From Pseudomonadota bacterium (lineage in GTDB: Bacteria; Bdellovibrionota; Bacteriovoracia; Bacteriovoracales; Bacteriovoracaceae), in NCBI GenBank assembly GCA_023432655.1, contig JAEYUK010000306.1, positions 1 through 9,321 on the forward strand: a stretch of DNA of 9,321 bases, written 5' to 3'. Positions within the stretch are counted from its first letter, which is position 1; every line of letters begins with the position of its first letter. Below the pieces are notes generated by a model, which worked only from the letters and a program-made list of their open reading frames with translations, did not search any database and was not told the DNA's origin. Positions 2,692-8,763 of the stretch are shown piece after piece. The position numbers and the translations under genes were made by a program.

Positions 2692-3507
2692 TCAGTAATG
2701 ATCAAAGCTTGGACGTTTTTTCTCAAGCATTCCATCTAAGGCCTTAAAGTGGTCCGACGAGCGTTGAGTGATTCCTTGGTAAGCGGCCATGAGTTCAAGA
2801 TGAGAAACAAGGTCGTTTTGGTAGGCGTGTATGACTGCCTTCTTAGTCATCTGAAGAGCAATGGGTGGAAGTTCTGCTAATTTGTCGGCCAACTCTTCCG
2901 TTCTTTTTTCTAGTTCGCTCGGTAGGACCACTTCATTTACGAGACCTATTTTCAAAGCTTCTTCAGCGGTCACATTTTTACAAGTAAGAAACATCTCCAT
3001 CGCTTTTCCAAAACCAATCAGACGAGTTAAGAAAAAGGCTCCCCCATCACCGGGAACCAAACCAACGCGAGCAAAGGTTTCTGCAAAAATCGCAGCTGAT
3101 CCGGCAATACGAAGGTCACACATGGCCGCGAGATCGCACCCGGCCCCAACTGCGGCCCCATTAACCATGGCAATGAGCGGAGTCTTCAATTGGGAAATAG
3201 TTAGTGGGATTTGTTGAATTCCTGCCTGATAAGCTTCCCGAAGCTGATTAGACTCTCCAGCAAACATGCCAGACTTATCTTTCATCGCCTTAATGTCACC
3301 GCCGGCACAGAAATTCTTTCCGGCCCCGGTAATCACAATGACTCGAATCGAATTATCAATATCCGCGTGTTTTAAAACCTCTACCAGAGCGTTTACCATT
3401 TCAATGGAATAGGCATTACTCGCCTCTGGGCGATTAAGAGTAATCCACAGGGTGCTATTTTTTTTATGAGCTACGAGGTCAGTATAAGGTTTCAAATAAG
3501 GTGTCAT
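2692..3507 (-). CDS. Enoyl-CoA hydratase/isomerase (crotonase) family protein
   Basis: A 271-residue crotonase-fold protein acting on an acyl-CoA thioester. The oxyanion-hole segments are present: NFCAGGD (residues 66-72) and NGAAVGAGCD (116-125). The two catalytic glutamates of classical enoyl-CoA hydratase (rat Glu144 and Glu164) align with Asp125 and Phe145, so ordinary crotonyl-CoA hydration is doubtful. The loop that follows (GLVPGDGGAFFL, 149-160) resembles PaaG-like and other divergent crotonases. The C-terminal EKKRPSFD is typical of the family. It is the sixth gene of the liu-type operon; its ATG overlaps the HMG-CoA lyase stop as ATGA (3504-3507), with AGGA just upstream. Leucine breakdown needs only one hydratase, which the operon already has, so this one may serve an isomerase, a short-chain acyl-CoA or a different branched-chain step. 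Family certain, substrate unknown. Confidence 0.93.
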   Translation of the reverse strand: MTPYLKPYTDLVAHKKNSTLWITLNRPEASNAYSIEMVNALVEVLKHADIDNSIRVIVITGAGKNFCAGGDIKAMKDKSGMFAGESNQLREAYQAGIQQIPLTISQLKTPLIAMVNGAAVGAGCDLAAMCDLRIAGSAAIFAETFARVGLVPGDGGAFFLTRLIGFGKAMEMFLTCKNVTAEEALKIGLVNEVVLPSELEKRTEELADKLAELPPIALQMTKKAVIHAYQNDLVSHLELMAAYQGITQRSSDHFKALDGMLEKKRPSFDHY

Positions 3508-4406
3508 ACATTTCCTGTACTAAAATAGGCCTTTAAAAATTTTGATTCCGTAGACCTTCCAATTTTTTCCAGAATAAAACGAGAAGCTGCCGCTAGTTTA
3601 TGAATATCGACACCTGTATCTAATCCCAAAGAATTCAGAAGGTACCAAACATCCTCAGTGGCAACGTTTCCAGTGGCCCCTTTCGCGTAAGGGCACCCTC
3701 CCAGACCTCCGGCCGAAGAATCGAAGGTCGTGATTTCTTCTTCCAGCGAAGCATAGATATTTGTCAAGGCCATGCCGCGTGTATCATGGAAGTGCATCGC
3801 GAGTTTCCCGACAGGAAACTCTGATTTCATAGCGCGAATGTAACTTCTGACCTGCATAGGGACGGCCACGCCAATAGTATCTCCGACTGAAACTTCATAC
3901 ACACCTAGTTCAAAGAGTCTCTTCGTTACAGAAATGAGTTTTTTCACATCCATAGTGCCCTCATAAGGACAACCAAAGGCCGTAGAAACATAGCCCCGAA
4001 CCAGAATATTATCTTTTTTGGCTTCCTGGGCGACTTCTTGCATTCGCTCAAAGCTCTCGTCTACTGTGGCATTGATATTTTTCTTCGTGAACGAATCTGA
4101 TGTAGCCGTAAAGAGAGCTATCTCTTTTACGCCTAACTTTTTTGCTGTCTCATACCCTTTAAGATTTGGTACCAGACACGGAAACGAAATCCCGTGTCCT
4201 GATAGCTCATTTTTCACCTGGGTAAAAAGTTCGGTAGCATCTGCCATTTGCGGGATCGCCGGCGCTTTCACAAAACTTGTGACTTCAATCGACTTAAGGC
4301 CGCTTTCTGCTAACCCCTTAATGAAGTTAAATTTATCGCTAGTCTGAAGAATAGTTTTCTCGTTCTGAAGACCATCGCGAGGTCCAACCTCAACTAACCT
4401 GATCAT
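3504..4406 (-). CDS. liuE: Hydroxymethylglutaryl-CoA lyase
   Basis: Cleaves HMG-CoA into acetyl-CoA and acetoacetate, the last step of leucine degradation, in the cytoplasm. The 300-residue length is that of bacterial lyases, and the active site is complete: Arg10-Asp11 in GPRDGLQNE, Glu41 in EVTSF, the metal ligands His205 and His207 in MHFHDTRG, the catalytic Cys238 in GGLGGCPYAKGATGN, and Asn247. These align with human Arg41, Asp42, Glu72, His233, His235, Cys266 and Asn275. The start at 4406 overlaps the biotin carrier stop as ATGA and has GAGG 7 nt upstream, so translational coupling is likely. The neighbouring MCC subunits and methylglutaconyl-CoA hydratase make leucine/isovalerate catabolism the clear role, although the family also serves ketogenesis. 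Symbol by homology to the Pseudomonas liu cluster. Confidence 0.96.
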   Translation of the reverse strand: MIRLVEVGPRDGLQNEKTILQTSDKFNFIKGLAESGLKSIEVTSFVKAPAIPQMADATELFTQVKNELSGHGISFPCLVPNLKGYETAKKLGVKEIALFTATSDSFTKKNINATVDESFERMQEVAQEAKKDNILVRGYVSTAFGCPYEGTMDVKKLISVTKRLFELGVYEVSVGDTIGVAVPMQVRSYIRAMKSEFPVGKLAMHFHDTRGMALTNIYASLEEEITTFDSSAGGLGGCPYAKGATGNVATEDVWYLLNSLGLDTGVDIHKLAAASRFILEKIGRSTESKFLKAYFSTGNV

Positions 4407-4888
4407 TCTGAAACCTCGGCCAGAACTACTCCTCCCTGGACAAGTTCGCCCACTTTGTGATGAATCTTTTTCACCACTCCATCTTTGTCCGAGCGGATAG
4501 AATGTTCCATTTTCATCGCTTCTAAAATCAGAATAGGTTCACCTTTTTTTACTTCACTTCCCACTTCTTTGATGATTTTAAAAATCTTTCCAGGCATCGG
4601 TGAAGTAAGACCGCCAGCATGAGCTCCGGCTTTTTTCATTTTTTTAGCGGCCGCTGTAGCAATGGCTTCCTTACCGTTAGCAATCACCATGGCCTCACCA
4701 TCTTTATTAGGAGTTCCCACAGCTGCTTTAAATCTTCCCCCATTATCAAGGATAAGCTCCGGTCCCTCTTTTCCAATCAGAAGATAGGTATAACTTTTTC
4801 CATTGAGTGAGAAAGTAACGCTGTCTCCAGCATGCTTATAATCTTGAACCTTCACTTCCTGGCCATTAATTGTAAAAATTTTTTCCAT
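4403..4888 (-). CDS. Biotin carrier protein of methylcrotonyl-CoA carboxylase
   Basis: A 161-residue protein carrying the biotin that shuttles carboxyl groups between the biotin carboxylase and the MCC beta carboxyltransferase. Residues 1-65 are beta-rich and match the C-terminal part of the BT linker domain of MCC alpha chains. Residues 70-93 form an Ala/Lys-rich flexible hinge. Residues 95-159 are a biotinyl domain with TSPMPGKI and the biotinylation site EAMKMEH, biotin going on Lys126. It begins 1 nt after the carboxylase stop (TAG-T-ATG), with AGGA 6 nt before the ATG, so it can start on its own. In most bacteria this sequence is the C-terminus of a fused alpha subunit. Its N-terminus has no independent start domain, so it looks like a fission product or the downstream half of a frameshifted alpha gene. 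Confidence 0.93.
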   Translation of the reverse strand: MEKIFTINGQEVKVQDYKHAGDSVTFSLNGKSYTYLLIGKEGPELILDNGGRFKAAVGTPNKDGEAMVIANGKEAIATAAAKKMKKAGAHAGGLTSPMPGKIFKIIKEVGSEVKKGEPILILEAMKMEHSIRSDKDGVVKKIHHKVGELVQGGVVLAEVSE

Positions 4889-4894
4889 ACTAAT

Positions 4895-4898
4895 TCCT
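4895..4898 (-). promoter_or_regulatory. Ribosome binding site deciding the biotin carrier start
   Basis: AGGA on the minus strand, 6 nt before ATG 4888 and inside the last codons of the carboxylase gene. It supports independent translation of the carrier and argues against a simple frameshift error at this junction. The carrier frame is closed by a stop a few codons further upstream, so no longer start is possible. Confidence 0.6.
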
Positions 4899-5768
4899 AA
4901 ACCCTACAAGTTCAGTCCAAGGGTTTCTGAGTATTTGAGATCCGGCAGTCACAGTTCTTTTCTTATCACTGAAACTAAGAGCTCCGATAATATCGGCCAA
5001 ATCGTGATCACTTAAGTCACGGGCCATAAGATCTTTTTTAAAATCAGGAATAAAATGGGTATGCGTGTGACCCGCCACGAATTCTTTATGAGCAAGGATG
5101 CGCTTTAAATAATCTCGATTGGTCTTAACTCCCAAAAATAATACTTCATCCAGGCTAGAGATTGTTTTGGAAATCGCAATATCGCGGGTCTCGCCCCAAA
5201 CCACCAGTTTAGCAAGCATCGGATCGTAGTTTACTCCCACCTCTGTTCCATCAAGAAAACCGCAATCAAGCCGCACATCGCGAAGACTAGGAGTTCCGAT
5301 GCGGTCAATCTTCCCAATGGATGGCATAAAGTCCTGATCCGGGTCTTCCGCGTAAATTCGGCATTCAATGGCGTGACCTGATTGCTTGATGTCACTTTGC
5401 TTTAAGGGAAGCTTATCCCCCTGGGCCACCATGATCTGATAATTAACGAGATCATGACCTGTGACCATCTCGGTTACCGGGTGCTCCACCTGAAGCCGGG
5501 TATTCATTTCCATAAAATAGAAACTACCGTCCTGGGCCATGATGAATTCAACAGTTCCAGCTCCTCGGTAGTTAATTCCCTTAGCAATCTCAACTGCTGT
5601 CTCACAAACTTTTAATCTTAGTTCCTGAGACATATTAGGTGCCGGAGTTTCTTCTACGACTTTTTGATAGCGACGCTGAATAGAGCATTCTCTTTCAAAA
5701 AAATGGAGATGATTCCCGTGAGTGTCACTCATGAGCTGAACTTCAATATGACGGGGATTTAAAACGTA

Positions 5769-5771
5769 TTA
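5769..5771 (-). other. In-frame premature stop TAA in biotin carboxylase
   Basis: The minus strand reads GTG TTA ATT GAA TAA TAC GTT, giving V-L-I-E-stop-Y-V, where the family has V-L-I-E-K-Y-L/V. A single change at base 5771 (AAA or GAA to TAA) explains it. Reading resumes in the same frame with conserved NPRHIEVQ, so there is no frameshift. Confidence 0.95.
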
Positions 5772-6370
5772 TTCAATTAACACTTTATCAGAGGAAAAAG
5801 ATTTAAGCCCCTCAGACTTGGCCCCACGAATCCCTTCCATTAGTTCCGAATCGTTATGAACGATTCTCATGCCTTTACCGCCGCCACCGGCCGAAGCTTT
5901 AATGAGAACCGGGTAGCCAATTTTCTTCGCTTCTTGAGCGAGATTTTCATCACTCTGATCATCACCATGATAGCCTGGAGTCAAAGGAACCTTTATTTTC
6001 TCCAGCGCTTTTTTAGATCCAATCTTATCTCCCATGAGAACAATCGATTCAGGAGTCGGACCGATGAAAATAATTCCGGAACTTTCCACCAGACGAGCAA
6101 ACTCTTCATTTTCAGAGAGAAACCCATATCCCGGATGGATGGCATCCGCGCCGGATTTTTTAGCAATATCGATGAGTTTTTTCTTATTGAGATAAGTTTC
6201 AGAAAGCGCCCCACTCCCCAGGGAATAGGATTCATCAGCGTAAAGAGCATGAGGTAAATTCTTATCGTCTTCAGCATAAACCGTAACGACCTTGATTCCC
6301 ATTTCTCTTGCTGTTTTTAAAACTCTTAAAGCAATTTCGCCGCGGTTAGCGACCATTATTTTTTTAATTT

Positions 6371-7144
6371 TCATGCTTTCATCCAGGCAGGTTTATCTTT
6401 TTCAAGAAGAGCGCGCATCCCTTCTTGCCCCTCAGCACTGACTCTTCTTTCAGTAATCATCTGGCAGGTAAAGTCTTCTGACGCTTTGAGATTTTTCATC
6501 ACACCACGTATGAGTTTTTTTGCTTCTTTCGCGGCGACGGGCCCTGCGGCAAGAAACTTCTTTTTTACTTCTTCAATTTTTAAATCCAGATCCTGTCCGC
6601 TCACAACAACTTCATGCACGAGCCCCATTCTCTGGGCTTCAATCGCCCCAAAACGCTCTCCGGAGAGCATCCAGGCACGAGCATTACTTTCACCAATTTT
6701 GGAAATACAGTAAGGAGAAATGACTGCCGGAATAAGTCCTAAGCGAACTTCGGTAAAACCCATAAGAGCATTATCTGCAGCGACAACGTAATCGCAAACG
6801 CTCACAAGCCCCACTCCACCACCAAGCGCATGACCATTGATTCTTCCAATCACTGGAACATCACATTCATTTATGGCCGAAAACATGCGCGCCAGACGTT
6901 TTGAGTCCTGGAAGTTTTCTTCTTTAGTGTAATCCTTCATCGCTTTCATCCAGTTAAGATCAGCTCCTGCACAGAAGCTATTTCCTTTACCAGATAAAAT
7001 AATGAGTCTTTCATCTTTAAATGATTCAAAGAGAGTAATCATCTCTTCAATTAATTCAGCATTAAAAGCGTTATGAAGATCGGGTCGATTTAACCAAACT
7101 TCTTTAACACCCTTTTCTTTTTCAATCACTTCAATGTATTTCAT
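6371..7144 (-). CDS. liuC: 3-methylglutaconyl-CoA hydratase
   Basis: Hydrates 3-methylglutaconyl-CoA to HMG-CoA, the step between MCC and HMG-CoA lyase. The 257-residue crotonase-fold protein has oxyanion-hole segments FCAGADLNWM (57-66) and NGHALGGG (103-110) and the LiuC signature FTEVRLGLIPAVISPY (130-145). Glu132 aligns with catalytic Glu164 of enoyl-CoA hydratase, while the Glu144 position is Gly112. The one-glutamate arrangement GGGVGLV is usual for LiuC-type enzymes and separates it from classical hydratases. It starts 2 nt after the MCC beta stop with AGGA 8 nt upstream, and its own stop overlaps the carboxylase start as ATGA. Placement between MCC beta and MCC alpha matches liuB-liuC-liuD order in other proteobacteria. 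Confidence 0.93.
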   Translation of the reverse strand: MKYIEVIEKEKGVKEVWLNRPDLHNAFNAELIEEMITLFESFKDERLIILSGKGNSFCAGADLNWMKAMKDYTKEENFQDSKRLARMFSAINECDVPVIGRINGHALGGGVGLVSVCDYVVAADNALMGFTEVRLGLIPAVISPYCISKIGESNARAWMLSGERFGAIEAQRMGLVHEVVVSGQDLDLKIEEVKKKFLAAGPVAAKEAKKLIRGVMKNLKASEDFTCQMITERRVSAEGQEGMRALLEKDKPAWMKA

Positions 7145-7146
7145 GA

Positions 7147-8763
7147 TTACATCCTGAACACACCCCAGCTCGGGTCTGGGAATTCTTCGTTATGGGTCAC
7201 ACTCAAACACAGTCCCAAAATATCTCGGGTCTGAACCGGATCAATCACTCCATCATCCCAAAGTCGTGCGGATGAATAGTAAGGTGATCCCTCTTTTTCA
7301 TATTTATCCAGGATCGGTTGCTTAAAGGCCGCCAGTTCCTGCTCTGTCATTTGAGGTTTTCCAGAAGCTTTAAGACCATCTTGTTTAACTGTCGCAAGAA
7401 CGTTCGCAGCTTGCTCACCACCCATGACGGAAATACGTGAGTTAGGCCACATGAAGAGAAATCTTGGGCTAAAAGCTCGACCGCACATACCATAGTTACC
7501 AGCACCAAAAGAGCCGCCAATCACGACAGTGAACTTAGGAACTTTTACTGTTGATACAGCAGTAACAAACTTCGCCCCATGCTTGGCTATTCCTTCATTC
7601 TCATATTGTTTCCCCACCATAAAACCTGTGATGTTTTGGAGAAAAATCAGAGGAACTTTTCTTTGCCCACAAAGTTCAACAAAGTGGGCCGCTTTCTGAG
7701 ACGATTCAGAAAAAAGGATCCCGTTGTTAGCGACAATACCCACCAGATAACCATGAATCTTTGCAAATCCAGTTACTAATGTTGTGCCATATCTTTCTTT
7801 AAATTCCTGAAACTCAGAGCCATCAACTAAGCGAGCAATAATATCTCTCACATCGAACGGTTTCCTCGTATCCTGAGGAATGATGCCGTATAATTCTTCT
7901 GTTTTATAAAGAGGTTCTTTAACTTCCGTTTTAATGTATTTACCAGGATGTTTAGGACGGTAGTTTAAAGTGGCCACAATGTTTCGTGCCATCTCAAGTC
8001 CTTCTTCTTCCGTCTCAGCAAAGTGATCCGCCACACCCGATTTAGAAGTATGCACATCGGCCCCTCCTAAATCTTCAGCTGTCACTTCCTCACCGGTCGC
8101 GGCCTTAACCAGAGGAGGTCCTCCGAGAAAAATGGTTCCATTCCCTTTAACGATAATCGTTTCATCACTCATGGCAGGAACATAGGCCCCGCCTGCAGTA
8201 CAAGAACCACACACCACTGCGATTTGTGGAATTCCTAATGAAGACATCTGTGCCTGATTAAAAAAGATACGACCGAAATGTTCTTTATCTGGAAACACTT
8301 CATCTTGTTTTGGGAGAAAAGCGCCCCCTGAGTCCACGAGATAAATACATGGCAATTTATTTTCCAGTGCCACTTCTTGCGCTCTTAAATGCTTCTTAAC
8401 CGTTAAAGGAAAATAAGTTCCACCTTTAACAGTGGCATCGTTAGCTACAAATAAGCACTCCACACCATGAACAAGTCCAATCCCTGTAACGACACCAGCA
8501 GAAGGAACATCTTCATCATAAACACCGTCGGCCGCGAGTGTTGAAAGTTCCAAGAAAGGAGAACCCGGATCAAGGATCTTTTCAATTCGTTCGCGAGGAA
8601 GAAGCTTTTGTCGCGACTTATGTTTTTTAATGGCGCTATCTCCGCCACCTTGGCGAGCTTGTTCTATTTTTGATTTTAGTTCTTTTGCGAGTCCGCGGTT
8701 AAATTCGGCATTAACTTGAAACTCAGTTGAATTGACATCAATGTGTGAGGCCAAAGGCTGCAT
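7147..8763 (-). CDS. liuB: Methylcrotonyl-CoA carboxylase, carboxyltransferase (beta) subunit
   Basis: Transfers the carboxyl group from biotin to 3-methylcrotonyl-CoA, making 3-methylglutaconyl-CoA. At 538 residues it is the usual MCC beta length and holds both carboxyltransferase domains. In the N domain I see [10 protein letters not shown] (144-153), [16 protein letters not shown] (186-201) and [14 protein letters not shown] (212-225). In the C domain I see [11 protein letters not shown] (374-384), [20 protein letters not shown] (416-435) and [16 protein letters not shown] (438-453). The PKQDEVFPD and [15 protein letters not shown] blocks are those of MCC beta rather than acetyl- or propionyl-CoA carboxylase. 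ATG 8763 is chosen because GGGG lies 5 nt upstream and the upstream ATG at 8775 is in another frame. First gene of the operon, with a promoter 36 nt upstream. It cannot work unless the alpha subunit is made, so the nonsense codon downstream affects this enzyme too. Confidence 0.97.

Follow-up and report, generated by a model that had tools for sequence, protein, structure and literature searches.

An in-frame TAA at codon 202 of an otherwise intact MccA-type biotin carboxylase gene: consensus error or recent null allele

The window, which is the whole 9,321-nucleotide stretch of DNA that was analysed, carries a biotin carboxylase gene whose frame is interrupted once, by an in-frame TAA at positions 5769–5771 of the minus strand. 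The TAA is best explained as a consensus base error, presumably mis-called or mis-assembled, in one 9321-base contig that is probably a small metagenome contig. The organism would then still produce full-length biotin carboxylase. We give this reading a probability of about 0.5 and rate it slightly above a real null allele, a weighting that is a judgement and not a measurement. The error is put ahead of the mutation because the stop is found on one small contig, while an intact and otherwise matching protein is on record.

The interrupted gene is part of a cluster that comprises the following features, with the kind of evidence given in brackets:

2692..3507, minus strand: enoyl-CoA hydratase/isomerase family protein, 271 aa (ORF and profile matches)
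3504..4406, minus strand: hydroxymethylglutaryl-CoA (HMG-CoA) lyase, 300 aa (NF004283, 395.6 bits against a cut-off of 246)
4403..4888, minus strand: separate biotin carboxyl carrier protein, 161 aa (ORF and profile matches)
4890..6374, minus strand: biotin carboxylase, MccA-type, 494 codons plus TAG, interrupted by TAA (frame, profile matches, relatives)
5442..5444, minus strand: codon 311, AAT, Asn (the only other residue unseen in the best 120 listed relatives)
5769..5771, minus strand: in-frame TAA, codon 202 (frame reading, AccC alignment)
6371..7144, minus strand: enoyl-CoA hydratase family protein, 257 aa (ORF and profile matches)
7147..8763, minus strand: carboxyltransferase subunit, MccB-type, 538 aa (JGI names of close relatives)

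Read along the minus strand, the order is carboxyltransferase, 257-aa hydratase, biotin carboxylase, carrier protein, HMG-CoA lyase and 271-aa hydratase, and genes for a carboxyltransferase, a carrier and an HMG-CoA lyase thus adjoin the carboxylase. As judged from its sequence, this gene set is probably a leucine-catabolism (methylcrotonyl-CoA carboxylase, MCC) cluster of a Peredibacter-like bacterium. Many close relatives of MccB are called 3-methylcrotonyl-CoA carboxylase beta subunit by JGI, and no NCBIfam model reached its cut-off against the MccB-type carboxyltransferase. The JGI names of the carboxylase relatives are mixed, being either MCC alpha subunit or acetyl-CoA carboxylase biotin carboxylase subunit. 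The position and family of the 257-aa hydratase would fit methylglutaconyl-CoA hydratase. The carboxylase itself has the expected domains: NCBIfam biotin carboxylase models match both pieces of the interrupted protein, each below the whole-protein cut-off as expected for a piece, and the Pfam biotin carboxylase N, ATP-grasp and C domains are present on the intact relative P0001.

Separate genes for the biotin carboxylase (494 aa) and the carrier (161 aa) are found in the window (4403–6374) and in 14/14 close relatives. Eight of the 113 genome matches in the phylum sit in open frames of 639–674 aa, which suggests a fused, alpha-subunit form.

The minus-strand frame 6374–4890 consists of 201 codons, the TAA, 292 more codons and a TAG at 4890–4892. 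It holds no second internal stop besides the TAA at 5769–5771, and it can be aligned to relatives over its full length. Of the features of an MCC biotin carboxylase subunit, the window gene lacks a frame open from end to end. In the alignment to E. coli AccC, the TAA falls exactly on Lys202, as the original prediction had stated. The prediction also held that the frame is intact and conserved on both sides of the stop, and this is borne out: apart from the TAA the frame is open, relatives align throughout, and 15 of 20 AccC positions, taken by us to be in or near the active site, are identical in the window. One of the remaining five is the stop itself and four differ (L204V, H236Y, I287M and K310N).

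The description of residue 202 as the ATP-binding lysine can be set beside one passage of a published study. There, inhibitors in modelled complexes are held by the E201 side chain and, through their backbone nitrogens, by K202 and L204, and the K202 and L204 contacts agree with biotin carboxylase crystal structures (PMC6271951). For K202 the passage concerns the backbone and not the side chain.

E. coli AccC (PDB 1bnc, 1dv2) is homologous throughout, with 219 of 447 aligned positions identical to the window protein; the two differ in that the window gene extends further at its C-terminus and lies in a leucine-type cluster. AccC serves acetyl-CoA carboxylase. The MccA proteins of Bacteriovoracia (e.g. 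P0001, P0004 and P0023 of Peredibacter starrii) have the same size as the window protein, 494–495 aa, from which the window differs by the stop at codon 202.

The stop is not shared by relatives. A search that read through stops covered 368 genomes of the phylum: 113 gave a match at E ≤ 1e-150, none of them with an internal stop, and 255 stayed without a match at this level. A lineage-wide split gene is rejected on this count. At the same site in relatives a lysine codon is usual: codon 202 could be read by motif in 24 of 30 fetched loci, where it is AAA in 16, AAG in seven and AGA in one, the other six being missed by the motif. The nearest genome (L083, L113) has AAG. Of 8000 scored candidates in the database, the best 120 listed relatives carry K at residue 202 in 119 cases and R in one; these are predicted full-length proteins chosen by score, which show residue conservation and could not reveal a stop. 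A scan of contigs was used only to reach the phylum and returned at least 80 loci, all distant, with a best identity of 53 percent among those listed. Of the relatives that carry a name, the best are Peredibacter starrii (87 percent) together with MAGs bearing the label Bacteriovoracaceae, Bacteriovoracia or Bdellovibrionota. Peredibacter is a predatory bacterium.

The most informative relative is P0001, whose representative equals the window over all 494 residues except 202 and 311. It is a cluster of two sequences on two contigs, drawn from the sources lgn and ena (taken to mean Logan and ENA), the longest contig being 10801; its agreement with the window rests on the cluster representative, one of the two members. 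The truncated product is represented by P0241, a 280-aa C-terminal form that consists of one sequence on one contig, whose 9321 bases match the window in length. P0241 was found with the 280-aa C-terminal piece as query, in a search limited by its length rule to proteins of about 154 to 490 aa. Of the 119 new proteins listed in that search, 14 (counting P0241) have their start in the range of residues 190 to 235; it is at 214 or 215 in five proteins other than P0241.

These fragments bear on the idea that residues 1–201 and 215–494, the latter from Met215, are translated separately and form a working enzyme. In its favour, a 280-aa frame can start from an ATG at codon 215, and the five other fragments begin at this place or one residue before it, although they may be contig-edge pieces or broken genes. 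Against such an assembly, residues 202–214 would be missing, conserved His209 among them, no clear ribosome site is seen by eye ahead of Met215, and the 113 genome matches are without an internal stop. We regard a split enzyme as the least probable of the explanations and as extremely unlikely.

It is nearly as hard to accept that the TAA is read through or recoded to give a full-length enzyme. The conservation on both sides of the stop would fit this. TAA is, however, an ordinary terminator in the window, where it ends MccB, a 102-aa ORF and the lipoprotein-like ORF, and recoding is unlikely for this reason. In addition, recoding is opposed by the lack of internal stops among the genome matches and by the base that follows the TAA, a T. 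A T in this position favours termination. The lipoprotein-like ORF (2278–2646) has a weak Pfam Bor family match (27.4 bits against a cut-off of 25) and is present in 14/14 relatives.

There remain an isolated error and an isolated mutation, which predict nearly the same sequence evidence. The first matter is whether the contig is prone to error. The other nine frames, two of which are cut by the contig ends, have no internal stops. Private changes were counted at coding sites with 11 or more sequences, wherever a single one departed from an otherwise unanimous base; there are 13 in the window, 17 in L113, and 5 to 185 in the other 13 relatives. MccB has no residue of its 538 that is unseen in its 120 listed relatives, and the carboxylase has two that are unseen in the best 120 of its own, the stop and N311. 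With 13 private changes against 17 in L113, a generally error-rich contig is rejected. This cleanliness counts against an error and for a mutation, but it tells against a bad contig and not against one wrong base.

The second matter is whether the gene is decaying. L113 is the nearest genome stretch, with 84.7 percent DNA identity and the whole window aligned end to end. Relative to L113, the carboxylase has 24 nonsynonymous codon differences, the stop and N311 included, and 185 synonymous ones, a ratio of 0.13. The other nine frames of the window range from 0.04 to 0.39, with UvrD at 0.12 (27 and 230), HMG-CoA lyase at 0.12 (17 and 139), MccB at 0.06 (12 and 205) and the carrier at 0.04 (3 and 68). 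The carboxylase is thus within the range of its neighbours, yet at about twice the ratio of MccB and three times that of the carrier. It has four residues unseen in other relatives in the window and three in L113. An established pseudogene would have accumulated further decay; a ratio of 0.13 inside 0.04–0.39 does not show this, and old decay is rejected even though the value is above those of MccB and the carrier. The original prediction of a very recent event or a base-call error is therefore supported: there is no clear nonsynonymous excess, and P0001 differs only at 202 and 311.

N311 (window 5442–5444), which the original prediction did not mention, is private to the window; the best 120 listed relatives have K in 95, R in 24 and G in one. 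A second private residue in the same gene could reflect relaxed constraint. As a control, positions with a conservation of at least 75 percent were considered, and 39 of the 120 listed relatives have two or more unique residues there; this figure takes no account of how close the nearest relative is, and many of these 39 may lack one as near as P0001. N311 as proof of relaxed constraint is rejected, since these 39 relatives likewise carry two or more unique residues.

Taken as a real and very recent nonsense mutation, the TAA would leave the strain with a null MCC biotin carboxylase allele and unable to carboxylate 3-methylcrotonyl-CoA, with its close kin intact. The inactive MCC and the halt of leucine catabolism that the original prediction proposed would apply only in this case. 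We hold this to be a serious candidate, at somewhat less than an even chance. The clean contig, N311 in the same gene and a nonsynonymous share above that of the partner subunits speak for it; the last of these points, 0.13 against 0.06 for MccB and 0.04 for the carrier, is also, with the clean contig, the lack of private residues in MccB and N311, what stands against an error. Starting from AAA, the codon of 16 of the 24 readable relatives, one base change would be enough; starting from the AAG of the nearest genome, two would be needed. In addition, the stop is known from one contig only, a near-identical intact protein exists in the database and the carboxylase shows no clear decay. The case for a consensus error is this: the stop is in 0/113 genome matches, P0001 is full length and differs at 202 and 311 only, the truncated form P0241 was found on one contig only in the C-terminal-piece search, and clear decay is lacking.

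The downstream carrier gene starts one base past the carboxylase stop, and the original prediction proposed that polar and coupling effects of the TAA would reduce the carrier. This is an inference only. AGGA, a motif resembling a ribosome site, lies upstream of the carrier start in the window and in 14/14 relatives, and for this reason the carrier need not depend on coupling. To judge from the sequence, the TAA would not have to entail a loss of the carrier.

Single-nucleotide nonsense alleles, that is, recent pseudogenes, and consensus errors in contigs share one appearance: a single stop breaks a gene that is whole in every other respect, and an intact copy is known elsewhere. Compared with such cases in general, the window has nothing distinctive, and it would be ordinary whether it is an error or a rare recent mutation. 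No paper came up when the literature was searched for premature stops and errors in metagenome-assembled genomes. That a Peredibacter-like lineage has just lost leucine breakdown through a nonsense mutation in the biotin carboxylase of its MCC, with the pathway kept by close kin, is a tentative reading that we favour less than the null allele as such. If the stop is real, a relative of predatory bacteria would have been caught losing a catabolic pathway at the first step. If it is an error, the window is a warning against reading pathway loss from one base on one contig.

The contigs of several relatives start about 1.4–1.9 kb past the window end (9321). Beyond this point (L127, 978–5883), a 16S-23S-5S rRNA operon in G107 ends about 1.4 kb past the window, and the contig breaks are probably due to this operon.
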